From Siphonodentalium dalli (taxonomy: Eukaryota; Mollusca; Scaphopoda; Gadilida; Siphonodentaliidae): 64,000 bases of DNA. The stretch covers positions 246,325,474 to 246,389,473 of the forward strand of contig CP136065.1 in NCBI GenBank assembly GCA_032622095.1. Reading direction: 5' to 3'. The translations under genes and the position numbers were made by a program. This document shows positions 3,419-54,215 of the stretch, in pieces (within the stretch, counting starts at the first letter, position 1; every line of letters starts with the position of its first letter). The notes below the pieces were generated by a model. That model was not told the origin of the DNA, searched no databases, and saw only the letters and a program-made list of their open reading frames with translations.

Positions 3419-3689
3419 TTAACCCTTGCAGTGCCAGGGGCCGATCTCATCGGCCCTAATATACGGTCTGTAAAATATATATATATTTTTTTTTTTTTTG
3501 GATTTTTAAAAAATTATTAAAGTTGTAAAAAATAAAAAAAAATAATAACAAATGATGAAAAATTGTTAGGCCAATGCATTCTCTTATATATGCGAGGCGA
3601 CCTATGGTCGACTCGCATATATAAGAGAATGCATTGGCACAGGGTATATTGGTTGATACAAAAATCGGACCTGGCACTCAAAGGGTTAA
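3419..3689. mobile_element. TTAA MITE, AGTGCCAGG ends, one hairpin cassette
   Basis: Flanked by TTAA on both sides. Termini are CCCTTGCAGTGCCAGG and, inverted, CCCTTTGAGTGCCAGG. One side reads GGGCCGATCTCATCGGCCC, the other TCCGATTTTTGTATCAACC. It carries a single ~68-bp hairpin (GCCAATGCATTCTC ... GAGAATGCATTGGC with a CGACCTATGGTCG tip) followed by ACAGGGTATA. TTAA target plus CCC start suggests a piggyBac-like non-autonomous element. Confidence 0.8.
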
Positions 3690-4074
3690 ACTGTGTCTTG
3701 TGTCATAATATTAGGTCTATATCTGGGTTTCCATTAATATGTATTGTCCGTAGATCCTAGGATAGGACGGGCCAACCATGGTTTGGCCGTTCATATGCAA
3801 ATTTTGAAATTGCATTGCATGGTCAAAAAACCTCTGTTTTCTTACACCAGAGAATAAATAGTGCTGGGCGGTTGTATTGGGCTATAAAAATACTACTGTA
3901 ATTTGAAAATCACACTGTGTTATTCCTGATTACATTTTATTTCCATAAATATTAAGAAATTTCACTGATTTTTTCATCTATGAACAAAGACAACCCTGGT
4001 CCCTGATATCGATGTCATGGTAATATCAGATCAATCTTATCCCGAACGTGGAATTATTACTATTTAACAAGTTG

Positions 4075-4471
4075 TTAACCCTTTACCCAACAAAACGGCC
4101 AAAACTGGCCAAATAAAGCTTCAACAGCCTAAAATATCTTCGGTCTGTCTCAATAGAACCATACAAATATGGATATCATTGGAACCGGCTCCTTGACCAC
4201 ATTGTGATAGTTACAGTTATGCCCTGTGCCAATGAATTCTCTTATATATGCGAGTCGACCATAGGTCGCCTCGCATATATAAGAGAATGCATTGGCCTAA
4301 AAAAAAATTTTTAACACTTTTTACCATTTTTTCTTACATTCTTTAACAATTTTATAATTTTTAATGTGTTAAGCCAATGCATTCTCTTATATATGCGAGG
4401 CGACCTATGGTCGACTCGCATTTATAAGAGAATGCATTGGCACAGGGCCCTTCTGTTGGGTAAAGGGTTAA
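4075..4471. mobile_element. TTAA MITE, CCCTTTACCCAAC ends, two hairpins
   Basis: TTAA on both sides; 389 bp between. Termini CCCTTTACCCAACA and TGTTGGGTAAAGGG. One flank holds GCTTCAACAGCCTAAAATA and TTGGAACCGGCTCC. Two inverted copies of the 68-bp hairpin are separated by a T/A-rich spacer (TTCTTACATTCTTTAACAA). No ORF; mobilised in trans if at all. Confidence 0.87.
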
Positions 4472-4840
4472 TGGACTATTTGTCAAAGTTATTTTCATGG
4501 CACGCGATAATACATTCTCATTTAAGTTCATAAATTTCCAGCAGAATATATGGATGGATTGACAGAAAATTTATTTATATATTTTTTGGGCATGAAAACC
4601 AGGTTTATTTTACGGTCCCCCCACCTACATAGCAGAAACCCTGCCTGTATATTGCCTAACAATGGGACCTTCGGTTTATCATGTACTAAGGTCCAATAAC
4701 CCTGCACGCATGATCAGAACTTCTCACATTGGCAACATCTAAATAAATTTTTAATGCAATGATATCTAGCTTTAAATCTGACACTCCCTATTTTTATCTT
4801 ATAAATTTTGGGCTACACTTACTATCCCTGAGTTATATAT

Positions 4841-5293
4841 TTAAAGGTACTCAATCCGATCAGACGGTCCCCATATCATCAAGTTACAACAACAACAACA
4901 TTTCTTCAAAATATGCTTTAGTTATCAGAATTGATTAATTACAACCACTGTTTACTATGGTATAAAATTTCCCAAACCGTGTTATTTATCAACACGATGT
5001 TCAACGAAATATGGCCATGTTATTACTCGAGTATCACAAAATTTGGTCGTATTACCACTTGATTTTAGAATAATCCATCTTCATCTGCAATTTTGTCCGA
5101 GACTGTCGGTTTGACGACTTTTTTCTGGGCCACAAATAAGTACACATTTCAAGAAATTTCAAATTTCAAAAATTGATATCTGATCACTCTGAGCTTTGAT
5201 GGGTGGGTTCCTCGACTCGAATAAAATATTTTTTACCCCCGAAGCCAAAGAAATAGTAATTTTGGAGCGCTAATTCGGATTATGCATCTTTAA
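4841..5293 (+). mobile_element. TTAA element, AGGTACTCAATCCGA ends
   Basis: TTAA at both ends with imperfect ~19-bp inverted termini (TTAAAGGTACTCAATCCGA against TTAAAGATGCATAATCCGA). Non-coding. A second copy in opposite orientation lies in intron 1 of the minus-strand SLC7 gene (56001-56444), which supports a dispersed element. Confidence 0.7.
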
Positions 5294-5867
5294 GGGGCCG
5301 CTTGGAAATACAGCAAACACTTTCTCAAACCATTGTGGCTGGAGGATTATGTTTTATTAGAAAATTTACCCGAACATAATTTTCCAAAAATTTGGAATCA
5401 ACTGGAAGATAGATTAATAATTTTTCCAACATGATCAATGTTGAAAACTGATTATATTTGTAAACTTCTGTCCTCTTATGAGATGAATCCCATATCCAAG
5501 TATAAAAACTGTCACAATTGTACAGATAAATAATCAAACTATAACTGTCAGATGCATGTTATTATACTAGTAATTCTTGCCACCAATGTGATTAGACTTA
5601 TACCCCCAGTTCATCCATAGCTGTCATCAGATCTCACAAAACGTTCTCATTCTTCGCATATTTTTCATGATATATATTACAAACTGCACATGAATTATTA
5701 TTATTCCTCTAGAAACTGCTCTAGACAGAAATTCATTATATTTAATATATACTTTGTTTGCCAAATTTGGGGTAAATATGAATTTTTTTGTTTTATACAA
5801 GGGGACGGCAGGAAGACAGCCTTCTTGGTTAACATTGTGACATGTTGAGCTTCCGGACTCATTATTG
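5294..5867. other. no recognisable feature
   Basis: AT-rich non-coding sequence inside the last intron of the plus-strand SLC7 gene; no repeat, ORF or RNA signal seen. Confidence 0.5.
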
Positions 5868-6300
5868 TTAACCCTTTGAGTGCCAGGTCCGATTTTTGTA
5901 TCAACCCATATACCCTGTGCCAATGCATTCTCTTATATATGCGAGTCGACCATAGGTCGCCTCGCTTATATAAGATAGGTCGCCTCGCATATATAAGAGA
6001 ATGCATTGGCCTAACAATTTTTTATCTTTTGTTATTATTTTTTTACAATTTTTTACAATTTTAATAATTTTTTCTTATATTCTTTAACAGACTTATTTAG
6101 TAGGTTTAGTGCCAGGGAATCTTATGTTTTTTATGGGCATCAAAATTATTACTATGAATACTTGGTGATAGCTTTGAGTTATAACATGCCCCTAAGGTGT
6201 TATCCAGTTTGTTTTTTATTATTTTTTATTTTTTTAGGGCCGATTTTACACACCGTAAATTAGGGCCGATGAGATCGGCCCGTGGCACTCAAAGGGTTAA
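5868..6300. mobile_element. TTAA MITE, AGTGCCAGG ends (opposite orientation)
   Basis: TTAA on both sides. The left end is CCCTTTGAGTGCCAGGTCCG, the right end TGGCACTCAAAGGG preceded by GGGCCGATGAGATCGGCCC. The single hairpin (5918-6012) has part of one arm duplicated. A ~190-bp stretch between the hairpin and the right end is absent from the copy at 3419. Confidence 0.78.
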
Positions 6301-6624
6301 ATTATATGTTTTCAATGCTATGTACATGTATGAGTTATAAAAATATTCTTAGTCATAGGCGCAAGTGGGCATCTTCACTCAGTGCAATGAGTGCATTCTA
6401 GTTAAAACAAGCTTTACTTTCCTCCATATTAATATCCAAAGTTATAAAGATAATATATAGCTATTCGGAGCCAATTTTGAATTTAAATACAGTTTTATTG
6501 TCAAATGAAATTATTTTGAATACAAACAGATCACTAAACCTGAAACTCTTAGAGAAGAAAAGTTTAGATTAGCTGACTTGCATGATATTCAACCTATAAG
6601 TGATATACATTTTAATTGTTACAG

Positions 6625-6692
6625 AAAACATGACAAGATCGATACAGAAGACGTTACTAGTGGTGGCAGAAGAGAAAGACATGGCATGGTGA
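6625..6692 (+). CDS. SLC7 transporter, terminal coding exon
   Basis: Follows the acceptor TTTTAATTGTTACAG. Joined in phase 1 to the exon at 2875-3049 it gives ENMTRSIQKTLLVVAEEKD, then MAW and a TGA stop. The pattern QK-LL-VV-EE is the usual cytoplasmic C-terminus of SLC7 light chains (QKLMQVVP and similar). The intron between is 3575 nt and is filled with MITEs. A 45-bp minisatellite bearing AATAAA in every unit begins about 60 bp after the stop. Confidence 0.8.
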
Positions 6693-6749
6693 TGAATGAA
6701 TCAGCTTGTCAGTAGCTTTCGGGGCTAAACGTGGCACAAAAGAGATGCC

Positions 6750-7080
6750 TCTCTAGCTGAAAATAAGTAACCCCGCTTGCAGAGATAGCAAATAAACCAA
6801 CTGAAAATATGTAACATCGCTGGCAGATATCGACAAATAAAAACGGGCCCACTCCAAATAAGTAACATCACTGGTGGAAATCGGCAAATAAACCCACTGG
6901 AAATAAGTAACATCGCTGCTGGAGATCAGCAAATAAACCCATTGGAAATATGTAACATCGCTGGTGGAGATCAGCAAATAAACCCGTTGGAATATGTAAT
7001 GGTGCTTGTGGAGACCGGCAAATAAACACACTGAAAATTTGTAACATCGCTGGCCGAGATTGACAAATAAACCCACAGTA
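6750..7080. repeat. 45-bp minisatellite with AATAAA in each unit
   Basis: Seven units carry AATAAA at 6791, 6836, 6887, 6932, 6977, 7021 and 7066, with GTAACATCGCTGG and GGAGATCAGCAAATAAACCC as common wording. It directly follows the stop codon of the SLC7 gene, so it is probably within or next to the 3' UTR and may supply polyadenylation signals. The minus-strand reading frame across it (a repeated 15-residue unit) is not a gene. Confidence 0.82.
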
Positions 7081-7766
7081 ACATGAAATGTGTTTTAAGA
7101 AGCCTATTATAACTCTAAATAAACCACAATGATCCCATTGTGACTACACATATGTTATATTGCTACTAAAGAACCACAGTGAACTGATTGTGCCAATATG
7201 AGTGAGTTTAATATATCGCTAGCGGTGAATGATGAATAACCTATAGCTGAAATCCATAACAAACCCGGTGTGAAATCATGACAAATCCACTGTGAAATCA
7301 TGACAAAACCACTGGAAAATGTCACTGGTCAAATGACTGAAAATGAAACATCGCTAACCGAGATTTATAAAGTGTTAATTATGACTGAAAATGAGTTCAG
7401 TTGCTAGCGGATTGTATTGCTAGCACAGAAGGATAAAGAACCTGTTGTGATTAGTTATGATTTATGTCACCAATGGAGAACCATAAAGAAATGCACTGTG
7501 ACCAGAAATGTGTCATGTCGCTAGCAGAGCTCCGGAATAAATTACTGTGACTAGACCAGAAATGCATCATCCATGACGTCATGTGGGGTGACAGTTAGAC
7601 TCGTCCATATCACTACTTGAGGTGACTCATCTACTGCAATGTCTGTGCAGTGACAGATCGGGTCGGGTGCTAGCCTATGGACCAATCAAATGTGATCATT
7701 TCAATGAAAACGAAACTAGATGTAATTATATATACTTAATTACAGGGTATTATTAGGATTGTGACA
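7081..7766. other. decayed continuation of repeats, no gene
   Basis: Contains loose echoes of the 45-bp unit (ATCGCTAGCGG, GAAATCATGACAAA pairs at about 7275-7310). No ORF or element ends seen. Confidence 0.4.
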
Positions 7767-7979
7767 CAGTAATGCCCTAAATAATCGACTCCTTAACTAC
7801 AGCAGAATTATGGGTAACTTTTCAGGATTTAGTCGGAAATATGGCTTGTTGCCATTCATCGGGAAGCTCTCAGTGAGAGCTTTCCGATGAATGGCAACAA
7901 GCCATATTTCCGACTAAATCCTGAAAAATTACCCATAATTCTGCTGTGGCTAAGGAGTTGATTATTTAGGGCATTACTG
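7767..7979. mobile_element. mariner-like fold-back MITE, copy 2
   Basis: 213-bp near-perfect palindrome, CAGTAATGCCCTAAATAATC to its inverted copy ending GGGCATTACTG, followed by TA. Loop around CTCTCAGTGAGAG. Confidence 0.87.
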
Positions 7980-8488
7980 TATATCATTCACATTATTTAT
8001 TCAAATTCAATGGAATCTATGGAGTGGCAAATCTCAATTCATCCAATCGTAACACAAATGTTTATTTCTTTGTTTTAATCATCTTTATTCAGATCATATT
8101 TCTCACATTTATGGAGGCACGGACTCAGTTTAGGAGTTTATTACTTCAATGTGCTTGCTTCAGTGAGCATGAACAAATTTGATAGGTTATGTTATACTAA
8201 GTTTACAGCAAAACAATAATGGTGTATAGCAGAAAAAACTCATCATTTGGCTGGATAAATTTGTAACACTAATTATATACACAAAAACAAATTTCTGGCA
8301 CACTGCCAAATCCAAACGTGATGAATAATCTAGGGACCATTCATGTTCGGCAATCTCTGGTGATTTCCGAGGGTTATGCAGTTATTGGAAAATAACTGCA
8401 ATGTGGTTATATGTTTATGAACACATTGACAGAATGGGCATAGCAGATGCAGTATTAGATGTATGTAAATAATTATTAGTACACGACT
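7980..8488. other. no recognisable feature
   Basis: Non-coding AT-rich sequence; nothing recognised. Confidence 0.5.
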
Positions 8489-8751
8489 TTAACCTTTTCA
8501 TGATGGGAGCCACGCTGGTGCATCAATAAAGACCCTGTGCCAGTGCATTCTCTTATATATGTGTGTCTCCCATAGGGAGCCTCGCATTTATAAGAGAATG
8601 CACTGGCTTACACGGTCAAGGTAAATATTGTTAAGCCATTGCATTCTCTTATATATACGAGGCTTCCTATGGGAGACTCATACATATAAGAGAATGCATT
8701 GGCACAGGGTTTTCACAAACTTTCAGGAATTTCCAGTCATGGAAGGGTTAT
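8489..8751. mobile_element. TTAA MITE, CCTTTTCATGATGGGAG ends, two hairpins
   Basis: Left TTAA, right TTAT (one change). First hairpin uses CCAGTGC/GCACTGG with the CTCCC/GGGAG tip; the second uses CATTGC/GCATTG (CCATTGC against GCATTGG). Spacer contains GTCAAGGTAAATATTGTTA. Right end TTTCCAGTCATGGAAGGG. Confidence 0.82.
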
Positions 8752-9501
8752 TGTTTGCTAGATTGAATGAAAGAGGCATTTTGATTGGTCCCAAGACTTT
8801 GATATCTGCTTGATTTATTGATTGAATGAAACATGTAATTTGATTGGTGAATGGTTGCATTGCAAAAAAATTTATCTGTTTAAATAATAAGTCTTGTAAT
8901 ATATAGGTAGTACTTACCCATCGACTCATAATAATAGATTCCTAACGAGGTTTGGAATGCAAGGGATTAGTTGATTATTGGGGTTATTCCCTGGAAAATG
9001 AGAACCATATGATAACCACATAACACCCCAACCACATGAGAACCATACATAAATGTTTTCAAGTATGACATCCTAGTTACCATGGCTAGACTCAATAAAA
9101 ATGAAGCTAGCTCTTGACATTTCATTTTCTGGTACAGTTATCCATCAGTTTGAGCTATTTTGCAATTAGTAGAATAAGCTGCAATTCATGCCAAACTGAT
9201 GGACAAATGTATTTTACTTGGCATGTTACATACTGAATCTGTATTAAAACTAAAAACATTTCATGCCAGGTATGATCCTGGAAAGGTCCTGGAATTTGGA
9301 TCAGAAAACACGTGGAATTTCCTTGAAATTTGGGTCCAGGTGTTTTGAAAAAGTCATGGAATTTTGTTCTCAAAATGGTGTAGGTACCCTGCTAACTTTT
9401 GAAGATGGTGTCTTTCTTCCCTGCATGTTTTGTACAGATTTCTGAGTAGAGGACACCATTCAACAGAAGCTTTTGTCATTGAAAATTAAATGTTCTTAAA
9501 C
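8752..9501. other. no gene; short internal duplications
   Basis: Small direct echoes: TTGATTG-AATGAAA (8763, 8818) and TCCTGGAATTTGGATC-like phrases near 9290-9360. No element ends or significant ORF. Confidence 0.45.
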
Positions 9502-10176
9502 TTAAAGGATTACACCGGTGAAGCTTTTCTGTCATTATCGATGCCCGCTAATCCACTGAGCATGTTGCCGAAAATATTTTTGTGATAGGCCACCCGTAAC
9601 TGAAGTTATGCCGATTCATGCGATTGAATATACAACTATGGATTATGCAGTCTGAATGGTTCATCTTCCCTCATGCGACATCACATGAGGGACTACTAGC
9701 GAAACACAGTGTCAAACTTGAAAGGCTGTCGAAATAAAATTGGTTTTTATCTACTGATCATTTAAACAGAAACGGCTGGACCATCGGAGCTGAAAATTTG
9801 TACATTTGGGTAAATCGACCCAGGGAATCTTACTAGATAGGTCCCGTTTATATCAGATGTCTTAAAAGGGCACTAATAATTAATTAAATAATTAATTATA
9901 TACCCTAAATGTTTTCAATCTGGTCAGTAAAAATTGAAACACAGGGATAAATTGACCCACATTGCATTAAGACAACTTAAAGGGGCAAATATGAGCAGTA
10001 AAGAGCGTTCCTTGTGTATAAAATTTGATACAGATGGGTCACCTGACCAGGGGAATGTCACGAGATATGCACATCTTCTCATATCCCATGGATAATGACT
10101 GAGAATGAAGCATTACTTACCTTTGACCTCATATCTTAAAAGGGGAATAATAAATAATATAATCATTAAAGAGCAT

Positions 10177-10573
10177 TTAACCCTTTACCCAACAGAAGGG
10201 CCCTGTGCCAATGCATTCTCTTATATATGCGAGTCGACCATAGGTCGCCTCGCATATATAAGAGAATGCTTTGGCTTAGCACATATTAAAAAGGATAAAA
10301 TTGTCAAAGAATGTAGAAAAATATTATAAAAATTGTTAAAAACTTTTTTAGGCCAATGCATTCTCTTAAATATGCGAGGCGACCTATGGTCGACTCGCAT
10401 ATATAAGAGAATGCATTGGCACAGGGCATAACTGTAACCATCACAATGTGGTCAATGAACCGGTTCCAATGATATCCATATTTGTATAGTGTTATTGAGA
10501 CAGACCGAAGATATTTTAGGCTGTTGAAGCTTTATTTGGGCATTTTTGGCCGTTTTGTTGGGTAAAGGGTTAA
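10177..10573. mobile_element. TTAA MITE, CCCTTTACCCAAC ends (in left arm)
   Basis: TTAA both sides, 389 bp internal, same length as the copy at 4075 but in the opposite orientation. Two hairpins; second side contains GGCCGTTTTGTTGGGTAAAGG. Confidence 0.87.
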
Positions 10574-10801
10574 TATCAGTTTAGAAGTTATGTGGGAAAT
10601 TGGTGGTAAAACCATCATATGATAGGACAGGTATTAGACAGAGGTTACATATAAAATTATATCGCCTCATGTTTTTACATGTTGTAAATGGAATCAGGAT
10701 AGAGGTGTTAGTCTCTTATTTAAAAATCGGCCACCAATTTTCCCACATATTTTCTGGACTGGTAATAAATGCTCTTTATTTATCATATAATCTATTAGTC
10801 C

Positions 10802-11228
10802 CCCTTTACCCAATAGAACGGCCCTGTGCCAATGCATTCTCTTATATATGCGAGTCGACCATAGGTCGCCTCGCATATATAAGAGAATGCATTGGCCTAA
10901 CAATTTTTTACAATTTTAATATTTTTTTCTTGTATTCTTTAACAATTTTATAATTTCACCCATACAGAGCCCCTGACAAACATGAGCAGACGACACTCTT
11001 CTATATGCTTCTATATATGTGTGGGGCTCCCTGCAGGGTAATGGATGTTTTTTTATTTTATGTCCTAAAAATTGTAAGAAACATTTATTTAAAAAAATTG
11101 TTAGGCCAATGCATTCTCTTATATATAGGTCGCCTCGCATATATAAGAGAATGCATTGGCAAAGGGTATTTTAGGCTGTTGAAGCTTTATTTGGGCGTTT
11201 TTGGCCGTTTTGTTGGGTAAAGGGTTAA
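10802..11228. mobile_element. TTAA MITE, CCCTTTACCCAA ends (in right arm)
   Basis: Right TTAA intact; left TTAA not preserved. First hairpin complete, second hairpin with a shortened tip (ATATAGGTCGCC). Carries the longer spacer type with ACAGAGCCCCTGACAAACATG, also seen at 21780, 23340 and 44060. Confidence 0.75.
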
Positions 11229-11959
11229 GTCATCTGAGGTAAATGGGAAGCAAGTAATGTTTTATTCTCAGCTATTATTCATGGATAGAACAACATGAGA
11301 AGATGTGCCTATCCCATGGCATTCCCCTGGTCAGGTGACCCATCTGTATAAATTTTCCTACACGGAAGGCTCTTTATTGCTCATATTTGCCCCTTTAAGT
11401 CATCTGAGGTCAACGGCATCTATCTCCTGACACTCTGCAGGTCAATTTATCTCCGTGTTTTAATTTTCACTGACCAGATTGCAACCATTTTGGGTATATA
11501 ATTAAATATTTAATTGAATTAATTATGCCCTTTTAAGACAATAAGTAGATAAAAGCCAATATGACAGTCTTTCAAGTTTTTACACTGCATGTCACTAGTA
11601 GTCCCTCATGTGACATCACATGAGGGAAGTTTAACGATTCAGACCGCACAATCCAAAATGGAATATGCAATCGCATGAATCTGCATTACTTCAGTTTTCG
11701 GCAACAAGCTCAGTGGATTAGCGGGCATCGACAATGACAGAAAATCTACACCGGTGTAATCCTTTAACAATTGTTGCTATTTTCACAATCCTATTTTGAG
11801 TTTGCAATATGTGTGCTTTTTCGGTGGAAATATCTTTTAAATCACTTTTAAGTAAACTATTTGTGACATCGTATTTTTCTCATGTGGTTTTTATGGATAC
11901 TTGTACAAATAGGAACATGTCTTCAAATCAAGTTTCATTCAAATATTCTGTTTTTGGAA

Positions 11960-12243
11960 GGTTTACCCATGAAGAGAGACCCCATCTTTACCCATGAAGA
12001 GAGACCCCATCTTTACCCATGAAGAGAGACCCCATCTTTACCCATGAAGAGAGACCCCATCTTTACCCATGAAGAGAGACCCCATGAAGAGAGACCCCAT
12101 CTTTACCCATGAAGAGAGACCCCATATTTACCCATGAAGAGAGACCCCATCTTTAGCCATGAAGAGAGACCCCATCTTTACCCATGAAGAGAGACCCCAT
12201 CTTTACCCATGAAGAGAGACCCATGAAGAGAGACCCCATCTTT
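11960..12243. repeat. 25-bp minisatellite (ACCCATGAAGAGAGACCCCA)
   Basis: About twelve units of TTTACCCATGAAGAGAGACC plus CCATC, with two short units near 12085 and 12220. Confidence 0.9.
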
Positions 12244-12302
12244 CAATAATAAAGGTTTGGCTTGATAACCGTTTTGTGAGCCAATAAGTTCCGAATCCAT
12301 GT

Positions 12303-12470
12303 TTAACCCTTTCAATGCCAAGTCCGATTTTTGTATCAACCCATATTTCCTTGATCATTTTTAAGAGCTCTTTCCATCAATGTATCACATTATTATAATC
12401 AATAAATTTGAAAAATGATCAAGGAAATATGGGTCGATACAAAAATCGGACTTGGCACTGAAAGGGTTAA
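12303..12470. mobile_element. short TTAA MITE, TGCCAAGTCCGATT ends
   Basis: 160 bp between TTAA sites; inverted ends of over 60 bp (CCCTTTCAATGCCAAGTCCG to ACCCATATTTCCTTGATCAT). No hairpin cassette. Related at its tips to the AGTGCCAGG elements at 3419 and 5868. Confidence 0.85.
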
Positions 12471-12619
12471 CTGTGCAGATATTATGTCCATTGATTAAAT
12501 CAGTTTGCTTACGATGGCCATGAAGCTGAATGATTCTACGATTCTGTGTTTGATGATAAATGTCCATTGATAGGTTAGTTACTGTTTTTGATGATAAATG
12601 TCTACTGAGAGGTTACTGT

Positions 12620-13050
12620 GTTTGAGTACTTGAATTGAGAGATTTTGAGGGATAAAATGATTGATGATCGATAAATTGTTCCATTTTACATCCCATTAAT
12701 GAGTATTTGAATTGAGAGATTTTGAGAGATAAAATGATTGATGATCGATAAATTGTTCCATTTTACATCCCATTAATGAGTATTTGAATTGAGAGATTTT
12801 GAGGGATAAAATGATTGATGATCGATAAATTGTTCCATTTTACATCCCATTAATGAGTATTTGAATTGAGAGATTTTGAGGGATAAAATTATTGATGATC
12901 GATAAATTGTTTCATTTTACATCCCATGAATGAGTATTTGAATTGAGAGATAAAATTATTGATGATCGATAAATTGTTCCATTTTATATCCCATGAACGA
13001 ATATTTGAATTGAGAGATAAAATTATTGATGATCGATATACTGAATGGAT
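12620..13050. repeat. ~78-bp minisatellite
   Basis: About five to six units: GAGTATTTGAATTGAGAG, then GATAAAATGATTGATGATCG and CATTTTACATCCCATTAATG. The last units are shortened. Confidence 0.85.
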
Positions 13051-13103
13051 TCTCCCAATTAGTTATACAAGACAGTCAATGACTGGGGTCGCTTTCCAGA
13101 CTG

Positions 13104-13503
13104 TTAACCCTTTACTCAACAGAAGGGCCCTGTGCCAATGCATTCTCTTATATATGCGAGTCAACCATAGGTCGCCTCGCATATATAAGAGAATGCATTG
13201 GCTTAACACATTAAAAATTATAAAATTGTTAAAGAATGTAAGAAAAAATGGTAAAAAGTGTTAAATTTGTTTTTGTTTTTAGGCCAATGCATTCTCTTAT
13301 ATATGCGAGGCGACCTATGGTCGACTCGCATATATAAGAGAATGCATTGGCACAGGGCATAACTGTAACCATTACAATGTGGTCAATGAGCCGGTTCCAA
13401 TGATATCCATATTTGTATGGTTTTATTGAGACAGACCGAAGATATTTTAGGCTGTTGAAGCTTTATTTGGGCGTTTTGGCCGGTTTGTTGGGTAAAGGGT
13501 TAA
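13104..13503. mobile_element. TTAA MITE, CCCTTTACTCAAC ends, two hairpins
   Basis: TTAA both sides, 392 bp between; one C-to-T in the left terminus. Spacer TTAACACATTAAAAATTATA. Same layout as the copies at 10177 and 15129. Confidence 0.87.
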
Positions 13504-14379
13504 GTCAGAGAAGACTGGCACTATGAAGACTACAATAGTCAGTACTTGTCAAATCACTTTAAAAAACAATTAGTTCTAAACCTGGACACAGGTCGAGGGT
13601 CTTCGTTAAATGGTGGGAGGGGTGTCCACCTTGAAATTTCTAACTGAACACCCCTTCCCCCAATAGATCATTGCCCATTACCTCCCAAATTGTCCAATCT
13701 AAATTACAACTGGTACTTCAAGATATCCAACTGTTGGAAATTTATCAAACCCTTACTGATAATACCTGTATATATCAAAATTATTACATGTAATATAGGA
13801 ATCGATTTACATGTACCAAACATGAATTCATAGCATAGATAGGTTGGTTGGTTGCGGGAGTGTTAAATCTCCTATCTCTTCCCCTAATTGAACCAAATCT
13901 AAATCCCAATCTATGAGATCCGTTGATCTAGTAATTTCAAAGGGTATATTAAAGAAGTTGAAGTGAGTTAATTTTCCTTAAAATAAGTTACAAAATTTAG
14001 GGAAGGGTTATCAACATTGTACCTATTATAATTGTTCCTTGAAATCGTCAGCATAATAATAAGACACACCATTATCACAGATGAAAAGGAGCTGATGGCC
14101 TATATAAACATAATATTGTAACACCTGCCTGTACAACTGCATAGAACACAGCGCATAGAAATTAATCTAATTTAAATTGAAATGAATTACACAGATAAAC
14201 ATTATCCAACCATTTCTGATATTTGTTTATCGAACACTGTCAGATAAGATCAGATCTCATTTCATACACAGAGACATTGGAGGGAATGGCAGGCAGACAG
14301 GCTTTATATTGTTGTAAGTGAAGATGACTTCTCAAATAATATTGTGGCATTAGGAATGGGAAAGAACAACAGTTGTAAC
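13504..14379. other. no recognisable feature
   Basis: Non-coding; nothing recognised over about 875 bp. Confidence 0.45.
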
Positions 14380-14512
14380 CAAGCCTTGAAATAGTGTCTG
14401 TCATTTGCAGAATGAGGTGCCCAGAGGGTGAATTTAGTGATGCTACCCCGCATAGCAGGCTAGCATCACCAAATTCACCCTCTGGGGACCTCATTCTGCT
14501 TACACCTCAGCA
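14380..14512. mobile_element. hairpin MITE, CAAGCCTTGAAATAG family, left half
   Basis: Starts CAAGCCTTGAAATAGTG, TCTGTCATTTGCAG, then one complete hairpin with a CCCCGCATAGCAGG tip. The second half is missing; the sequence continues TTACACCTCAGCATAG. Confidence 0.75.
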
Positions 14513-15128
14513 TAGTTTTTTTCCATTTAAATTATTTTTTGTTTGGTTAAATTGAGCAAGGCAAGGCGTTCAATCTAAATTATTTTGGGGGGGGGGGGGA
14601 GTGGGGAGTTATGGCCCACATTAGACCCAGTGACATCATTTGAACAAATCTGAACCCCAGTCACACAAGAACCCTTCATAGCATATATGAACCCATTCAG
14701 CACGATGGTACTTGAGAAGAAGTCATTTTAAAAATTACTATGGAGGGAAGAGTTATGGCCCTGGCTTTGCAACTATTTGACCCAGTGACCTCATTTGAAC
14801 AATCTGAATGAGTCACCTAAGGAACAACGACACCAAATATGAACCCATTCGGACTTATGGTTCTGGAGATGTTTTAAGGAATTGTTGACGGATGGACGAG
14901 GAGTGATGACTAGCTCCGCCAGAGACATAGTCTCAGGTGAGCTAAAATGTGTTTAATGGAATGGTCTATTATTCATTTGGAGGGGTGTTCATGAAAAATG
15001 AGCAGATGACAAGACAGGCTATTCATTTTCATTGGAGGGAAATACTCAATGATTGTTGAACTTATTATCAGAACATTTCCTAAGGAAACTACTCATCAAT
15101 TTGTATTTTGTAAAGAAAGGGTTCAGTT
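14513..15128. other. diffuse repeat, no gene
   Basis: A G-homopolymer at about 14588 and duplicated phrases (GACCCAGTGACNTCATTTGAAC at about 14625 and 14790; ATGAACCCATTCNG at 14689 and 14839) indicate a decayed tandem dispersed repeat. At 15050-15130 there is one decayed unit of the 68-bp minisatellite family. Confidence 0.5.
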
Positions 15129-15529
15129 TTAACCCTTTACCCAACAGAAGGGCCCTGTGCCAATGCATTCTCTTATATATGCGAGTCGGCCATAGGTCGC
15201 CTCGCATATATAAGAGAATGCATTGGCTTAACACATTAAAAATTATAAAATTATTAAAGAATGTAAGAAAAAATGGTAAAAAGTGTTAAAATATGATTTT
15301 TTTTTAGGCCAATGCATTCTCTTATATATGCGAGGCGACCTATGGTCGACTCGCATATATAAGAGAATGCATTGGCACAGGGCATAACTGTAACTATCAC
15401 AATGTGGTCAAGGAGCCGGTTCCAATGATATCCATATTTGAATGGTTCTATTGAGACAGACCGAAGATATTTTAGGCTGTTGAAGCCTTATTTGGGCGTT
15501 TTTGGCCGGTTTGTTGGGTAAAGGGTTAA
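15129..15529. mobile_element. TTAA MITE, CCCTTTACCCAAC ends, two hairpins
   Basis: TTAA both sides, 393 bp between. Both hairpins near-complete; the first has GGCC for GACC at its tip. Confidence 0.87.
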
Positions 15530-15770
15530 CAAATCTAAATCTCAGTCATCCAAGGATGCTCCATACAAATTAAAGCCAAGCAAACCTGATGATTTCAGAG
15601 AATATGTTTTAGAGGAATCACTCCATTATTGGAGAGAAAACGCATGTGGAGATCCCTGGCTCCATCCCTATCTTAATCCTGGGGTTAACGATTTGAGCTG
15701 CACTGGTGCAGCATTAAAGATCCTGTGCCAGTGCATTCTCTTATATTTATAAGAATGCACTGGCTTACAA

Positions 15771-17659
15771 TGATCATGATGGGAGCTGCGCTAGTGGGGT
15801 ACTAACGATCCTGTGCCAGTGCATTCTCTTATATATACAAGGCTCCCTATATACAAGTCTCCCATAGGGAGCCTCGTGTATATAAGATGATGCACTGGCT
15901 TACAATGATCATGATGGGAGCTGCGCTAGTGGGGTACTAACTATCCTGTGCCAGTGCATTCTCTTATATATACAAGGCTCCCTATATACAAGTCTCCCAT
16001 AGGGAGCCTCACGTATATAAGATGATGAACTGGCTTACAATGATCATGATGGGAGCTGCGCTAGTGGGGTACTAACGATCCTGTGCCAGTGCATTCTCTT
16101 ATATATACAAGGCTCCCTATATACAAGTCTCCCATAGGGAGCCTCGTGTATATAAGATGATGCACTGGCTTACAATGATCATGATGGGAGCTGCACTAGT
16201 GGGGTACTAACCATCCTGTGCCAGTGCATTCTCTTATATATACAAGGCTCCCTATATACAAGTCTCCCATAGGGAGCCTCATGTATATAAGATGATGCAC
16301 TGGCTTACAATGCGCTAGTGGGGTACTAACGATCCTGTGCCAGTGCATTCTCTTATATATACAAGGCTCCCTATATACAAGTCTCCCATAGGGAGCCTCA
16401 CGTATATAAGATAATGCACTGGCTTACAATGATCATGATGGGAGCTGCGCTAGTGAGGTACTAACCATCCTGTGCCAGTGCATTCTCTTATATATACAAG
16501 GCTCCCTATATACAAGTCTCCCATAGGGAGCCTCACGTATATAAGATAATGCACTGGCTTACAATGATCATGATGGGAGCTGAGCTAGTGGGGTACTAAT
16601 GATCCTGTGCCAGTGCATTCTCTTACATATACAAGGCTCCCTATATACAAGTCTCCCATAGGGAGCCTCACGTATATAAGATGATGCACTGGCTTACAAT
16701 GATCATGATGGGAGGTGCGCTAGTGGGGTACTAACTATCCTGTGCCAGTGCATTCTCTTATATATACAAGGCTCCCTATATACAAGTCTCCCATAGGGAG
16801 CCTCACGTATATAAGATGATGCACTGGCTTACAATGATCATGATGGGAGCTGCGCTAGTGGGGTACTAATGATCCTGTGCCAGTGCATTCTCTTATATAT
16901 ACAAAGCTCCCTATATACAAGTCTCCCATAGGGAGCCTCACGTATATAAGATGATGCACTGGCTCACAATGATCATGATGGGAGCTGCGCTAGTGGGGTA
17001 CTAATGATCCTGTGCCAGTGCATTCTCTTATATATACAAGGCTCCCTATATACAAGTCTCCCATAGGGAGCCTCACGTATATAAGATGATGCACTGACTT
17101 ACAATGATCATGATGTGAGCTGCGCTGGTGGGGTACTAACCATCCTGTGCCAGTGCATTCTCTTATATATACAAGGCTCCCTATATACAAGTCTCCCATA
17201 GGGAGCCTCATGTATATAAGATGATGCACTGGCTTACAATGATCATGATGGGAGCTGCGCTAGTGGGGTACTAACTATCCTGTGCCAGTGCATTCTCTTA
17301 TATATACGAGGCTCCCTATATACAAGTCTCCCATAGGGAGCCTCACGTATATAAGATGATACACTGGCTTACAATGATCATGATGGGAGCTGCGCTAGTG
17401 GGGTACTAACGATCCTGTGCCAGTGCATTCTCTTATATATACACGGCTCCCTATATACAAGTCTCCCATAGGGAGCCTCATGTATATAAGATGATGCACT
17501 GGCTTACAATGATCATGATGGGAGCTGCGCTAGTGGGGTACTAACTATCCTGTGCCAGTGCATTCTCTTATATATACAAGGCTCCCTATATACAAGTCTC
17601 CCATAGGGAGCCTCACGTATATAAGATGATGCACTGACTTACAATGATCATGATGGGAG
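15771..17659. repeat. 135-bp tandem array of hairpin units, about 14 copies
   Basis: Units start TGATCATGATGGGAGCTGCG at 15771, 15906, 16041 and 16176, then (after one shortened unit) at 16430, 16565, 16700, 16835, 16970, 17105, 17240, 17375, 17510 and 17645. Each holds CCAGTGCATTCTCTTATATA, the tip CTCCCATAGGGAG and AAGATGATGCACTGGC, so every unit can fold on itself. Units are nearly identical, so the array is young or homogenised. Confidence 0.93.
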
Positions 17660-19125
17660 CAGTCGACATAAATTTCGACTCAGTATATCATATAAATTCG
17701 AACAGGACTGGGCGGAAAGCTATTTCCAGACTTGGGGATATACCAGGAAATTCCTTGTTTTGATTGGAAGCGGTACCAGAAACCGCTAACCCCGATTGGC
17801 TAACCGATAACAGCTGCGCGTGTTCCGTAAAAATAGCTCAGGTGTCATCTGTATATGGCGAACGCAATAGTTGTTTAACTCGGTCATGTGGCACTGATTT
17901 AAAGTTAGTTTTAATAGTCGTATTGATTTTGACCAGCTGCTTTATTAAAGAAAAACACTTTTGACAAATGGCATGATTCTGATCGGCGGCGAAATAACCG
18001 ATGCCGATATTCAGTGTTCTGTACTAGTAAATCTCTGCCTCTCGTAACATTCCAATACAACCAGTGTTCGCGCTGGACCGAAAAAAACTTTAGCCAAAAG
18101 TTTAGCCAAATGAAAATTATATTAGCCAAATGAAAAAAACTTTAGCCAAATGTTTTTTGGTCAAATTAAAAAAAACTATGGCCAAATTAAATCATCGTTT
18201 TCTGGTCGGTTTACAATTAATGACTAAAACGTCAAATCTAACAGACACAGGTAACATACACAATAATTTAACTGATTTTGAATTAAAAATATTTATATAT
18301 ATATCATTTATTAAACATTTATTAATCTTTATGTGAAAGAACGATTTGGGAGGGAGGGGGGTAACCCGGGATTGTCCTTTTTAATGTCATTATTTTTTTG
18401 TTTTATATCAATATCTTTTTTTAAATCATTAAATATTAATTATCCTTGCGAAAATATCTAAGTGACATCTGGAAACTAATTACGTAATATTGTTACGCCA
18501 TTATCAAATTACAATCTGTCGTAAAATCATGCATATTATTTTGAATGCATCGGTATTGACGACAAATAGCCACAAAATATCTGTCGGGATTCAGATTTGG
18601 CTGATTAAGCTATTGTCTTACAATCGGTGCTCATAAACCCTGCCCTGCCAGTGACCAGACAGACAATGGAGGATTAGCGGATTAAATGTAAAACAATGAC
18701 CTTTTGCTGTTTCGTGCAGAGTGACGGGTTTTCCTTTGTACTGTCCGCGATCGGGTTTCCCTTTGTACAGTCGGCGATATATTTCCACTTACGATGTTTT
18801 CGGACTAGATCGTTCACAACGAAAACCCACTTGCTAAAAAATCATGCTTTCAGTCTCCATTTGGGGTTAAAAAAAGTTTAGCCAAAAGTTTAGCCAAATG
18901 AAATTTTTATTAGCCAAATTCGAAAAAGATTAGCCATTGGCTAATTTGGCTACCGACAGCGCGAACACTGAATACAACCGCATAAATTATTCCTTATTTG
19001 GAATGTCTGTGACATCAGTATGACGTCACGATATTGGGGGAAGCCCATTGTTATGGAAATGGGTTTTTACATGAATTCGTGTCGACGTAATATTATAATT
19101 ATTACGGAGATGTTTACGTCGACTG
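17660..19125. mobile_element. TIR transposon inserted in the 135-bp array
   Basis: Ends CAGTCGACATAAA and, inverted, CAGTCGACGTAAA. The 9-bp flank TGATGGGAG occurs on both sides (17651-17659, 19126-19134). This could be a target duplication (hAT- or Mutator-like), though the array unit itself contains the word, so some ambiguity remains. 1466 bp including a 909-bp nested hAT; no credible transposase ORF. Confidence 0.72.
18062..18970. mobile_element. non-autonomous hAT element nested in 17660-19125
   Basis: 14-bp inverted ends CAGTGTTCGCGCTG and 8-bp target duplication AATACAAC (18054-18061, 18971-18978). Subterminal TTTAGCCAAA repeats near both ends. No transposase frame. Confidence 0.88.
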
Positions 19126-21634: not shown

Positions 21635-22003
21635 ACCCTGTGCCAATGCATTCTCTTATATATGCGAGTCGACCATAGGTCGCCTCGCATATATAAGAGA
21701 AAGCATTGGCCTAACAATTTTTTACAATTTTAATAATTTTTTCTTGTATTCTTTAACAATTTATAATTTCACCCATACAGAGCCCCAGACAAACATGAGC
21801 AGACGACACTCTTCTATATGCTTCTATATATGTGTGGGGCTCCCTGCAGGGTAATTTATATTTTTTATTTTATGTCCTAAAAATTGTAAGAAACATTTAT
21901 TTAAAAAAAATGATAAAAAATTGTTAGACCAATGCATTCTCTTATATATGCGAGGCGACCTATGGTCGACTCGCATATATAAGAGAATGCATTGGCACAG
22001 GGT
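21635..22003. mobile_element. ACCCTG hairpin-pair element
   Basis: Runs from ACCCTGTGCCAATGC to GCATTGGCACAGGGT after a T-run and before an A-run. Two inverted 68-bp hairpins flank a spacer with ACAGAGCCCCAGACAAACATG and GTGTGGGGCTCCCTGCAGGG. No TTAA termini here, unlike the CCCTTT families that use the same cassette. Confidence 0.8.
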
Positions 22004-32111: not shown

Positions 32112-32302
32112 CATGATGGTAGCTGCACTAGTCCTGTGCCAGTGCATTCTCTTATACATGTATATACGAGTCTCCCATGTGGAGCCTCACATATATAAGA
32201 GAATTCAAGGGCTTGTAAATATTGTTAGGCCAATGTATTCTCTTATATATGCGAGGCTCCCTATAGGAGACTCACATATATAAGAGAATGCATTGGTACA
32301 GG
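32112..32302. mobile_element. truncated hairpin MITE at unit junction
   Basis: Same truncation and same CATGTATATACGAG variant as 29441-29631, showing that the junction was copied with the unit. Confidence 0.72.
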
Positions 32303-40594: not shown

Positions 40595-41168
40595 TTAACC
40601 CTTTCGTGAAGGGAAGAGCGGCGGCGCAACATTAAAGACCCTGTGCCAATGCATTCTCTTATATATGCGAGTCGACCATAGGTTGCATATTTAAGAGAAT
40701 GCATCGGTTTAACAATTCTTTATCATTTTTTATCAATTTTTCTTACATTCTTTAACAATCGTTATCATTTTTTTTTCATTTTTTTTTTTACATTCTTTAA
40801 CAATTTTTGTAATTTTTTATAATTTTTTCTTACATTCTATAACAAGTTTTTAGAATATTTTCTTATATTCTTTAACAGTTTTATAATTTGTTCTTATATT
40901 CTTTAACAATTTTATCATTTTTTTTCTTACATTCTTTATCAATTTCTATAATTTTTTCTTACATTCTATAACAAGTTTTATAAATTTTTTAACATTATTT
41001 CTTACATTCTTTAACAATTTTTTATAAATTTTTTTCAATTTTTCTTACATTTTTTAACTATTTAATATAAAAAATAATATAAAATTAGTCAAGCCAATGC
41101 ATTCTCTTATATATGCTAGTCGACCTATGGTCGACTTGCATATATAAGAGAATGCATTGGCTCAGGGT
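40595..41168. mobile_element. hairpin-pair element with expanded spacer
   Basis: Left TTAA and CCCTTTCGTGAAGGGAAGAG; ends after GCATTGGCTCAGGGTT. The spacer TTTTCTTACATTCTTTAACA, single in most copies, is repeated about ten times with variation. The whole is flanked by direct repeats of about 33 bp (ATTGGTATGAAGATGAACAA against ATTGGTATGAAGCTGAAGAA). Confidence 0.75.
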
Positions 41169-41479
41169 TATCATATTAGCATTGGTATGAAGCTGAAGAA
41201 ATGATAATAGGGAAATAGCCATGGAACATAAATTTGTTACCACAAATTTTTATCTTCAACTAGATTATCAAATTTCAGTTTCGCTGATCAGTCTTATTCA
41301 TTACTTTTGTTTTCGCAGTATGGTAACTATGGACATGCTTTCAAAATGACATCATGATGTGGGGCGACGGTTGGAGATGCCCAATTTCACTCCGCATTGT
41401 GATGCAAGAAACTACACTTCCCTTAGCTGATAGAGATTGTCAGCTTTTGTCACAACCAAATGTATCTAAGTGCCTTAAT

Positions 41480-42090: not shown

Positions 42091-42837
42091 TGAGTTTATT
42101 GTGCCTGTCATTTGCAGAATGAGGTCCTCAGAGGGTGAATTTAGTGATGTTATCCTGCATAGCAAGCTGGCATCACTAAATTCACCCTCTTCGAACCTCA
42201 TTCTGCATGGCCTCATCTTCTCTGGAAAGATTCTTTATTATCAAATTTCTAAAGAAACTTCTTTACATAGAATCTTTTTCTTTTATAGTTTAGTTTCTCT
42301 TTATCCCCAAATTGGCAGACGACACATTGCATCTTTGAGGTTCCCAATGGGTGAACATCACAATATTCATCATGTGGGAACTTAATTCTGAGTCTATTTC
42401 TCCCATAGCAGATGATGCCATGCAGAATGAGGTTCCCAGAGGGTGAATTTAGTGATGCTAACCCATATGCGGGATAGCGTCACTAAATTCACCCTCTGGG
42501 AACATCATTCTGCATGGCCTCATCTTCTCTGGAAAGATTCTTTATTATCAAATTTCTATAGAAACTTCTTTACATAGAATCTTTTTCTTTTATAGTTTAG
42601 TTTCTCTTTATCCCCAAACTGGCAGACAACACATTGCATCTTCGAGGTTCCCAATGGGTGAACATCACAATATTCATCATGTGGGAACTTAATTCTGAGT
42701 CTATTTCTCCCATAGCAGATGATGCCATGCAGAATGAGGTTCCCAGAGGGTGAATTTAGTGATGCTAACCCATATGCGGGATAGCGTCACTAAATTCACC
42801 CTCTGGGAACCTCATTCTGCAAATGACAGGCACACTA
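42091..42837. mobile_element. hairpin MITE with internal 307-bp tandem duplication
   Basis: TGAGTTTATTGTGCCTGTCA start, AATGACAGGCACACTAAT end. The spacer plus one hairpin (from CATGGCCTCATCTTCTCTGG at 42206 and 42513) is present twice, giving three hairpins. Confidence 0.82.
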
Positions 42838-42989: not shown

Positions 42990-43726
42990 TTAACTCTTTC
43001 ATGACGGGAGATTTCTGAATTTTTGCGAAAACCCTGTGCCAATTCCTTTCTCTTATATATGCGAGTCGACCATAGGTTGCCTCGCATATATTAGAGAATC
43101 CATTGTCCTAACACATTTTGTAATATGTTTTTATAATTGTCAAAGAATGTAAGAAAAAATGATAAAAAAATTGTTAAAGAATGTAAGAAAAAATTATACA
43201 ATTTGATAAAGAATGTAAGAAAAAATGATAAAAAAAAATGTTAAAGAATATAAGAAAAAAGCGATAAAAAAAAGTTTAAAAATGTTAGACAAAATGATAA
43301 AAAAAAAGAAGATAAATAGAGGATCTCACATGAGTTTCTAGTTTATACGGAATTTATCAACCGAGTTCACTAAATTCGATTTGAGCCGAGGTTTACCGAG
43401 GCTCAAATAGAATTTAGAGGACGAGGTTGATAAATTACGTATAAAATAGGACGAGTGTGAGATACCTTTTATCACACTCGTCCAATAAACCCGAAGCAAC
43501 GCGCAATATTCATCGAAAACAACAATCATAAACTACGGCGATTGCAAGTTATTTGAAGAACGCTGTGACGTCATCGCACGCGCTGATATTAAACGTGTCT
43601 ATTACCGATAACTGCTTTTATGTGATAAAAATTGTTAAAAAATGTAAGACTCACATATATAAGAGAATGCACTGGTACAGGGTCTTTAATGTTGCGCAAG
43701 CGCAGCTCCCGTCATGAAAGGGTTAA
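42990..43726. mobile_element. TTAA MITE, CTTTCATGACGGGAG ends, interrupted
   Basis: TTAA both sides. First hairpin degenerate; spacer AAAGAATGTAAGAAAAAATG expanded about five times; second hairpin reduced to one arm. Between about 43315 and 43620 it holds unrelated sequence with its own palindrome (AATTTATCAACC ... GGTTGATAAATT), probably a further insertion. Confidence 0.72.
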
Positions 43727-43865: not shown

Positions 43866-44329
43866 ATATGTGACCCGCCATATCAAATCCAGTCGGAAGT
43901 CGGGATTTTTTTACCCTGTGCCAATGGATTCTCTTATATATGCGAGTCGACCATAGGTCGCCTCGCATATATAAGAGAATGCATTGGCCTAACAATTTTT
44001 TACAATTTTAATAATTTGTTCTTGTATTCTTTAACAATTTTATAATTTCACCCATACAGAGCCCCAGACAAACATGAGCAGACGACACTCTTCTATATGC
44101 TTCTATATATGTGTGGGGCTCCCTGCAGGGTAATGGATGTTTTTTATTTTATGTCCTAAAAATTGTAAGAAACATTTATTTAAAAAACATGATAAAAAAA
44201 TGTTAGGCCAATGCATTCTCTTATATATTCGAGGCAACCTATGGTCGACTCGCATATATAAGAGAATGCATTGGCACAGGGTAAAAAAATCCCGACTTCC
44301 AACTGGATTTGATATGGCGGGTCACATAT
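43866..44329. mobile_element. TA-flanked TIR element carrying the hairpin pair
   Basis: Outer inverted arms TGTGACCCGCCATATCAAAT and GAAGTCGGGATTTTTTTACC run straight into the ACCCTGTGCC hairpin pair; TA on both sides. Same spacer (GAGCCCCAGACAAACATGAG) as 21635 and 23194, but there the outer arms are absent. Confidence 0.78.
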
Positions 44330-46632: not shown

Positions 46633-46905
46633 TTAACCCAATCATGAGGGAACTGCCCTGGTGCAGCATTAAAGACCCTGTGCCAGTGCATTCTCTTATA
46701 TATGCGAGTCTCCAGTGGGGAGACTCGCAATAGGCTCGCATATATAAGAGAATGCACTGGCTCACAAGGTCAACATAAATATTGTTAGGCCAATATATTC
46801 TCTTATTTATGTGAGGCTCCTTATTGGAGGCTCGCATATATAAGAGAATGCAATGGCACAGAATTTTCGCAAAATTTCAGAAAGCTCCCATCATGAAAAT
46901 GTTAA
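46633..46905. mobile_element. TTAA MITE (CATGAGGG ends), two hairpins
   Basis: TTAA both sides; CCAGTGC-type first hairpin with an altered tip (CTCCAGTGGGGAG) that still pairs; second hairpin CCAATAT/GCAATGG with a CTCCTTATTGGAG tip. Right end CTCCCATCATGAAAAT. Confidence 0.82.
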
Positions 46906-51764: not shown

Positions 51765-52018
51765 CAAGCCTTGAAATAGGGTGTCTGTCATTTGCAGAAT
51801 GAGGTCCCCAGAGGGTGAATTTAGTGATGCTACCCCGCATAGCGGGCTAGCATCACCAAATTCACCCTCTGGGAACCTCATTCTGCTGAGGTGTAAGCAG
51901 AATGAGGTCCCCAGAGGGTGAATTTGGTGATGCTAGCCCGCTATGTGGGGTAGCATCACTAAATTCACCCTCTGGGGACCTCATTCTGCAAATGACAGAC
52001 AACCTATTTCAAGGCTTG
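51765..52018. mobile_element. complete hairpin MITE, CAAGCCTTGAAATAG ends, duplication GTTATGAT
   Basis: 254 bp with two full ~88-bp hairpins. Flanked by GTTATGAT (51757-51764, 52019-52026). The word also belongs to the adjacent 28-bp array, so insertion into the array's first unit is the likely history. Confidence 0.86.
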
Positions 52019-53148: not shown

Positions 53149-53248
53149 CAGCCAGCAAAAGCGTAGAATCCAGAGTAGAATGACATCGCTATGCTTCCTG
53201 CGCTGTAGTCTCCGCCTTCGAATGGATTTTTGAAACTGTCTCTGTCCC
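53149..53248 (-). CDS. SLC7 transporter, exon 3
   Basis: Completes a glycine codon, then DRDSFKNPFEGGDYSAGSIA and MSFYSGFYAFAG. Acceptor ATGTTATCCTCAG, donor GTGAG; phase 1 in, phase 2 out. The FYSG-YAFAGW segment is strongly conserved in SLC7. A TTAA MITE begins about 40 bp upstream of the acceptor. Confidence 0.93.
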
Positions 53249-53290
53249 CTGAGGATAACATAGATCATTAGTCGCATCAAGGACACTTGC

Positions 53291-53549
53291 TTAACCCTTT
53301 CAGGACAGGACCACTGGTGCAGCATTAAAGATCTGGTGCCAGTAATTCTCTTATATATGCGAGTCTCCCATAGGGAGCCTCACATATATAAGAGAATGCA
53401 CTGGCTTACAAGGTCAAAGTATATATTGTTAGGCCAATGTATTCTCTTATATATGCGAGGCTCCCTATGGGAGACTCGCATATATAAGAGAATGCATTTG
53501 CACAGGGTTTTTGCAAAATTTCATGAAGCTCCAGTCAAGGAATGGTTAA
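53291..53549. mobile_element. TTAA MITE, two hairpins, beside exon 3
   Basis: TTAA both sides, 251 bp between; CCAGTAATT/GCACTGG and CCAATGT/GCATTTG hairpins with CTCCC/GGGAG tips. Confidence 0.83.
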
Positions 53550-53689
53550 AAAAAACAAGCGCAGTGCCCGGTATATTGTAATATGGCATTTAACTTTTGT
53601 TTTAGAAGAATACCATAATAGTTATGATCCAAAAACCGATGAAAATGATAGAAACTAACTAATTTCTGAATTTATACACAGAATGACAC

Positions 53690-53965
53690 GGGTGTGTTAA
53701 TGTGTTTGTTGATATGGCACGAGTGTTAGCACGGAAGGATAGAACAAGAGGCACAGCCTTGAGTTCTATCCTTCCGCGATGGCAACAAGTGCTGTATAAA
53801 AAAAAAACTCATGAACACAATAGATAGAACGACACAAGTGTGTGAACATGATAACGTTATTGCACGAGTTTGTTCTGACGCAATGGTAAAACGAGAACCG
53901 GAGGTTCAAGTTTTACCTCGCGGCATGACAAACGAGTGCAATAACGTTAACATGTTCACAGAACT
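53690..53965. repeat. two adjacent fold-backs
   Basis: GGAAGGATAGAAC pairs with GTTCTATCCTTCC, and GTGTGAACATGATAACGTTA pairs with TAACGTTAACATGTTCACA, the latter enclosing GTAAAAC/GTTTTAC. Possibly related MITEs. Confidence 0.6.
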
Positions 53966-54039
53966 GTGTTGTTCTATGTTTATTGCACACTCTGAAGATT
54001 GTAGCTTGTACTATACTAAAATTTAGGTCTATATTGTTT

Positions 54040-54215
54040 ATTTAATTGCACAAGCGAGTCTGGGGCTCTGTATGGGTGAAATTATAAAATTGTTAAAGAA
54101 TATAAGAAAAAATTATTAAAATTGTAAAAAATTGTTAGGGCAATGCATTCTCTTATATATGCGAGGCGACCTATGGTCGACTCGCATATATAAGAGAATG
54201 CATTGGCACAGGGCT
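54040..54215. mobile_element. half of a hairpin-pair element
   Basis: GGGGCTCTGTATGGGTGAAA spacer, one perfect 68-bp hairpin and GGCACAGGGCTC; left half missing. Confidence 0.72.

Follow-up and report, generated by a model that had tools for sequence, protein, structure and literature searches.

A shared hairpin core beneath unrelated ends in abundant MITE families of the scaphopod Siphonodentalium dalli

A 64,000-nucleotide stretch of the Siphonodentalium dalli genome (GCA_032622095.1, contig CP136065.1, positions 246,325,474 to 246,389,473, hereafter the window) contains many miniature inverted-repeat transposable elements (MITEs) in which a characteristic hairpin, here termed the core, lies beneath ends of different kinds, and this raises the question of how one interior came to be carried by elements that differ in termini and target sites. 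A first-pass annotation had offered two answers, capture of the core by unrelated elements or mobility of the core itself. We propose, with moderate confidence, that the core is a block that was captured by unrelated transposon ends and was then carried along as each of them amplified. Specifically, among three of the four carrier families (P1, P3, and M1, but not P2) core identity does not track terminus identity, one set of termini is found cored as well as coreless, and the target-site type is not the same in all carriers, all of which agrees with the first of the two answers. The transfer between families, its mechanism, and the function of the core are what we infer from these patterns.

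The core unit is a 69-bp hairpin in which 27 perfect outer pairs are followed by a T.C mismatch, five further pairs, and an ATA loop, and such hairpins are present where they had been annotated. The usual arrangement, also as annotated, is two inverted copies flanking a spacer with CCCTGTGCC and GGCACAGGG as limits, although the elements with AGTGCCAGG ends (P3) carry one hairpin and a spacer and no inverted pair. Both folding and abundance are far above chance. Two slightly damaged hairpins, one of type A and one of type B as defined below, fold as DNA to -32.4 and -26.6 kcal/mol versus shuffle means of -6.3 and -5.9 kcal/mol, and none of 200 shuffles matches either. Genome-wide (2.2267 Gb in nine contigs; all genome-wide counts given here are of exact matches), a 14-mer of the outer stem is found 337,586 times (168,925 forward and 168,661 reverse), while the same pattern read backwards, which served as the control, is found 0 times and, by our own arithmetic, about 17 copies would be expected in random sequence. 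Core arms with up to three mismatches also occur in eight of 20 sampled 10-kb stretches, taken at round coordinates from all nine contigs. The hairpin was not recognized as a microRNA precursor, as all 70 Rfam matches in window 3400-15600 (E up to 1) fall under the gathering score of their family. There are two subtypes, which are 84-88% identical, type A with CGACC/GGTCG and type B with CTCCC/GGGAG at the center. The core had been described as constant under differing ends, and this holds for type A in P1, P3, and M1, but the elements with CATGATGGGAG ends (P2) carry type B, which is probably the older of the two.

The carriers fall into two target-site types. P1 (TTAACCCTTTACCCAAC), P2 (TTAACCCTTTCATGATGGGAG), and P3 (TTAACCCTTTGAGTGCCAGG) all have the TTAA duplication and CCCT-type ends of piggyBac-type MITEs, and their first ten bases, TTAACCCTTT or a close variant, are common to all. 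The three TTAA termini reported earlier as distinct are separate families, but they represent one kind of end. In the window TTAA is present on both sides of five of five P1, two of two P3, and two of three P2 elements; the P2 element at 8489, which had been listed as a TTAA element, has no intact TTAA at its right end. The fourth carrier, M1 (GTGACCCGCCATATC...), has a 4-bp AWWT target duplication. Pairing of M1 ends by eye gave 12 pairs, with six more ends left without a partner, and in nine of them the same 4 bp (ATAT, AAAT, or ATTT) are directly repeated on both sides, a further pair is off by one base, and two (in stretches L045 and L046) have inverted flanks; TTAA was found at none of the 12. 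The TA that had been taken as the flank of the element at 43866 is part of this 4-bp duplication. Duplications of 4 bp are known from the Sola, Chapaev, and Ginger superfamilies, and M1 is not assigned to any of these. There are 91,612 P1 ends and 20,012 M1 ends in the genome.

To compare cores with ends we used a base of about 360 kb, including the window, that was partly picked through P1, M1, and transposase matches; stretches L004-L007 were left out of later analyses because they overlap with L003. Hairpin identity among P1, P3, and M1 is 0.966-0.984 between families and 0.957-0.993 within them. The 20 bp just outside the core, on the other hand, have an identity of 0.877-0.946 within end types and of 0.135-0.489 from one end type to another (P3 being represented by four rows), where the shuffle level is 0.336 with a standard deviation (sd) of 0.083. 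The interior is thus better conserved between families than the terminal inverted repeats (TIRs). The within-type values for P2 hairpins are 0.881 and 0.892, the first of which is lowered by tandem-array copies among the 15 P2 left rows. An 18-base spacer motif gives a similar picture, as it is present in 22 of 30 P1, 11 of 22 M1, and four of five P3 spacers, and in the one spacer from a P2-ended type A element, versus none of 25 other P2 spacers, none of 456 coreless genomic windows, and two of 1660 shuffled spacers. Since hairpin and spacer are both common to P1, P3, and M1, type A is, as judged by sequence, one core by descent beneath unrelated ends. Apart from TTAACCCTTT, the P1, P3, and M1 ends themselves show no relationship, and M1 uses a different type of target site.

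A tree of 66 hairpins (74 columns) has a sole strong deep split, P2 versus the rest (99/96), while most forks remain open, and 20 identical hairpins are drawn from P1 (12), M1 (5), and P3 (3). The first-pass annotation had named two patterns that would speak against its reading, congruent trees of cores and termini and one set of ends drifting gradually into another. Congruence is seen for P2 versus the rest, in a weak form for P1, and not for M1, whose labels are unclustered (14 changes versus 13.1 when shuffled); drifting ends were not seen.

Cores can change ends, as they have in stretch L010, where a tandem duplication in 520-bp steps places an M1 end on a hairpin of the P2 lineage, and this hairpin groups with its P2-ended neighbor (99/99 in the same tree). 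Several elements in the window, missed in the earlier annotation, are mixed or coreless. In the element at 10798 a spacer of the M1 kind is enclosed by P1 ends, and that at 42990 exemplifies elements in which a type A core adjoins a P2 right end, a junction that occurs 188 times genome-wide; at 40595 a P2-like left end is likewise found with type A hairpins. In the coreless elements at 12303 and 20467 the shared end stops about where the core would begin, and in the genome as a whole P3-type ends number 9,251 without the core versus 11,771 cored junctions, where it should be noted that a coreless element can have two such ends. The array at 15748-17660 had also been overlooked. A GCCAGTG arm is found at 53 M1 ends, which we did not count as chimeras, since single mutations among the 14,399 junctions of M1 end and core could account for them.

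We now put forward a hypothetical mechanism in which the core would have arisen in the older P2 family, an origin suggested by the greater divergence of P2 and by the right-hand P2 hairpin being the nearest to type A. The symmetric type A pair would result from the right-hand half of P2 being duplicated in inverted orientation, and the P2-ended type A elements would represent the bridge. Stalling of replication at the palindrome, with a switch of template, could then move the core to P1, P3, and M1 ends, after which the transposase proper to each end type would spread the cored chimera as a unit. We further propose, from paired changes in the stem, that the copies with an intact hairpin would amplify best.

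These changes were scored in the 66 hairpins with a length of exactly 74 letters (including four P2 left and four P3), with the array copies dropped. Within lineages single-sided changes outnumber paired ones by 39:0 in type A (51 hairpins), 12:0 in P2 left (4), and 38:2 in P2 right (11). Between lineages, type A and the P2 left consensus have three pairs in seven differences (1.9e-5 under random placement), and type A and the P2 right consensus have two pairs in five (4.5e-4), although, with two pairs in common, the two comparisons are not independent. In 63 of the 66 hairpins the T.C mismatch is kept, which makes wholesale re-copying of one arm unlikely. As changes are paired between lineages and single-sided within them, intact hairpins may be favored in amplifying copies, such that copies may decay freely while the founders of new bursts retain pairing. 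Alternatively, a mutational process that alters both arms together may be responsible.

The same pattern, with stem differences mostly paired between lineages and single-sided within, is also what would be expected if the hairpin were a cis-acting element for transposases or host factors, for example a binding palindrome, whose holders outcompete others so that sharing comes about by selection. There are precedents for such a role in that a CRD dimer binds a palindromic 19-bp internal repeat of piggyBac, as described in the accessible text of PMC7351741, and the authors of the coral CMITE study, to which we return below, proposed in the accessible part of their paper that a shared interior aids transposition (PMC2872659). 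Cored P3 junctions also exceed coreless P3-type ends, with the reservation on paired coreless ends given above. However, a piggyBac-specific site would not serve M1, as its target-site type differs, and palindromes stand out at just one of seven autonomous piggyBac ends, and we regard selection for such an element as an unlikely source of the sharing. Another possibility is mobility of the core, with the composite CCCTGTGCC...GGCACAGGG being a present or past mobile element in its own right, which has inverted ends of 75 bp and entered P1, P3, and M1 by insertion. Indeed, six end types join the core at the same base (±1) with a constant CCCTGTG boundary, the M1 core lies at the center of a palindrome between TTTTTTTA and TAAAAAAA, much like an insertion at a central TA, P3-type ends are found both cored and coreless, and the two bare cores annotated between T- and A-runs (21636 and 23195) do lack recognized ends. 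These bare cores, however, have their left flank in common and may represent one event, and no target duplication was seen around the core in the P1 or P2 sequences inspected. An exact genome-wide search, with flanks placed side by side, gave no true empty site for P1, P2, or M1; ends without the core were found at one M1, two P1, and one P2 place, and as core bases remain at each of the four they look like deletions rather than empty sites. Each of these families seemingly amplified, therefore, from a core-holding founder. In addition, 101 of 113 outer core boundaries adjoin one of the six known end types and just 12 adjoin none, several of which are degraded versions (the 113 are what is left of 188 boundaries once 15 within a tandem array and 60 that are inward-facing or not readable as outer are dropped). 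We consider independent movement of the core, the second answer of the first-pass annotation, to be improbable.

Descent of all carriers from one element in which only the ends drifted apart would account for TTAACCCTTT in P1, P2, and P3, but the cores of P1, P3, and M1 are almost the same whereas the 20 bp next to them are close to shuffle level, P3-type ends occur coreless, and the M1 ends with their different target duplication contradict it, so that we give this explanation hardly any credence. Capture by unrelated ends is the reading that we prefer, and the following results weigh against it. The constant boundary at the six end types is not what random template switching predicts and leaves past mobility of the core in contention, and diverged empty sites would escape an exact search, most of all in P2, the older family. 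Family labels are non-random on the core tree (16 changes versus a shuffled mean of 26.5), with weak clustering of P1 (11 versus 15.6), and P1 right and P3 ends reach an identity of 0.489, about 1.8 sd over the shuffles. No autonomous partner emerged from 12 of the at least 128 piggyBac transposase loci, which were inspected with about 1.6 kb on each side and contain neither P1-P3 or M1 ends nor core arms. Hairpins of the young families are also not clearly less stable than ends: indels of at least 3 bp affect 13 of 64 such hairpins, six of them from two related loci, versus three of 50 ends, and with loci that are partly odd-length picks these numbers do not make a convincing case that hairpins are more fragile. 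Finally, we entertain as a speculation, and a doubtful one, that the double hairpin is a portable cis-acting amplification cassette, possibly once mobile, that serves two or more unrelated transposases, raises the copy number of whichever transposon ends acquire it, and in this way lives on transposons as a parasite.

Matches to the piggyBac transposase domain number at least 128 in the genome, and many of them lie in long open frames. Among the first 100 P1 and M1 matches listed, none of the widely spaced end pairs is recognizable as an autonomous copy: L041 is a P1 element split by an intervening 2 kb or so of other sequence, L042 and L043 each contain two M1 elements, and L045 and L046 have M1 ends around a Bcl-2-like open reading frame. 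In the last two (L045:126-1535 and L046:103-1488) M1 ends and core arms enclose about 1.2 kb with this Bcl-2-family frame, which in L045 matches PF00452 (E 9.6e-11) and has BAX as its nearest solved chains (best E 4e-4). The L045 core hairpin is opened near its apex, and the flanks of both loci are inverted and not direct. Subterminal palindromes exceed shuffles at one of seven autonomous piggyBac ends, from few families, and are not used here as support. The elements of the window are collected in Table 1.

Table 1. Core-bearing and related elements in the window.
Feature	Position	Strand	Description
Typical P1	10177..10573	+	TTAACCCTTTACCCAAC ends; type A hairpins 10201-10275, 10352-10426; TTAA both sides
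Further P1 copies	4075-4471, 13104-13503, 15129-15529, 37203-37603		TTAA flanks on each
Mixed element	10798..11228	+	P1 ends, left TTAA gone; M1-kind spacer; two type A hairpins, second damaged
P2	8489..8754	+	CATGATGGGAG ends, type B hairpins; right end without intact TTAA
Further P2 copies	46633-46905, 53291-53549		CATGATGGGAG ends, type B hairpins
P3	5868..6300	+	AGTGCCAGG end, one type A hairpin and spacer; TTAA both sides
P3, second copy	3419-3689	-	TTAA both sides
Coreless element	12303..12470	.	P3 left end on either side; AGTGCCA-ended
Coreless element	20467-20674		AGTGCCA-ended, right side damaged
Bridging element, P2 right side	42990..43726	.	Type A hairpin (43032) beneath a P2 right end; spacer of AT-rich repeats
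Same bridging element, other side	42990..43726	.	Type B arm and P2 left end; TTAA flanks both sides
P2-like left end (80%)	40595..41173	+	Two type A hairpins, long AT-rich tandem spacer; right end unassigned
M1	43866..44329	+	ATAT duplication, GTGACCCGCC inverted ends; type A hairpins 43914-43988, 44207-44281
Bare core, no recognized ends	21636..22002	+	Between T- and A-runs
Second bare core	23195-23565		220 bp of left flank in common with the 21636 core (96%)
Tandem array, 135-bp unit, 14.3 copies	15748..17660	+	Unit is the left half of P2 with type B hairpin

The window also contains local duplications at 23566-24165, 29630-30122, and 32301-32793 (96.6% over 498 bp), and the stretch duplicated at 29630 and 32301 starts exactly at a type B hairpin boundary. 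On contig C1, P1 and P3 matches repeat every 11.2 kb or so between 0.82 and 0.92 Mb, which suggests a tandem repeat with a long unit holding both. Another abundant palindromic repeat family is centered around TTCACCCTCTGGGGACCTCATTCTGC (for example at window 42113-42821 and 51794-51989, and also in stretch L040), and an amino-acid permease open frame lies at window 56947-57462 on the minus strand (PF13520, E 1.8e-19).

If the interiors and ends of MITEs are reshuffled between types of transposon, families drawn up from ends do not have the same history as those drawn up from interiors, and a classification by termini overlooks that of the interior. The coreless and cored P3 forms, the P2-ended type A elements, the chimeras, and the two core lineages allow a test of whether a conserved core aids MITE amplification, a question left open by the coral CMITE paper as far as its accessible text goes (PMC2872659).

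The CMITEs of Acropora are the closest known parallel, and by title and abstract they are the only case of a shared interior under different TIRs that was found in a literature search made largely without subscription journals. According to the accessible part of the account (PMC2872659), they comprise six TIR families with CCCTTT-type ends and a shared interior, some 75 bases long and of unknown origin, number an estimated 1,600 or so copies, and form arrays. They resemble the elements described here in their TTAA sites and CCCTTT-type ends, in having different TIRs over one better-conserved interior, in tandem arrays, and in a genome with several piggyBac families, although CMITE arrays consist of full elements and the 135-bp array at 15748-17660 consists of half-elements (PMC2872659). 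The present core differs, so far as that account goes, in being a long hairpin that is mostly doubled and that also resides in elements with a 4-bp AWWT duplication, and in the coreless, bridging, and chimeric forms; the interiors are likened here by description and not by sequence. The exact P1 ends alone exceed the CMITE copy estimate by a wide margin (91,612 versus about 1,600; PMC2872659). Pack-TIRs offer a parallel for the gain of sequence between TIRs followed by amplification: in the accessible description, template switching (the FoSTeST model) is proposed to bring foreign sequence between the TIRs of multicopy animal Pack-TIRs (PMC8277862), but these capture host sequence, whereas here a transposon interior moves between transposon families. 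The internal repeat of piggyBac is likewise a palindrome within a TTAA-type transposon end, of 19 bp versus 69 bp here (PMC7351741, accessible text), and piggyBat is described, in the portion available, as having several transposase sites, one of them inhibitory (PMC11707139). A role of the hairpin as a transposase site is possible by this analogy, and M1 speaks against one restricted to piggyBac. The elements of S. dalli are the CMITE phenomenon on a larger scale, and what is new is the crossing of target-site types, the occurrence of coreless, bridging, and chimeric forms, the far higher copy number, and an exchange of ends that could be observed.

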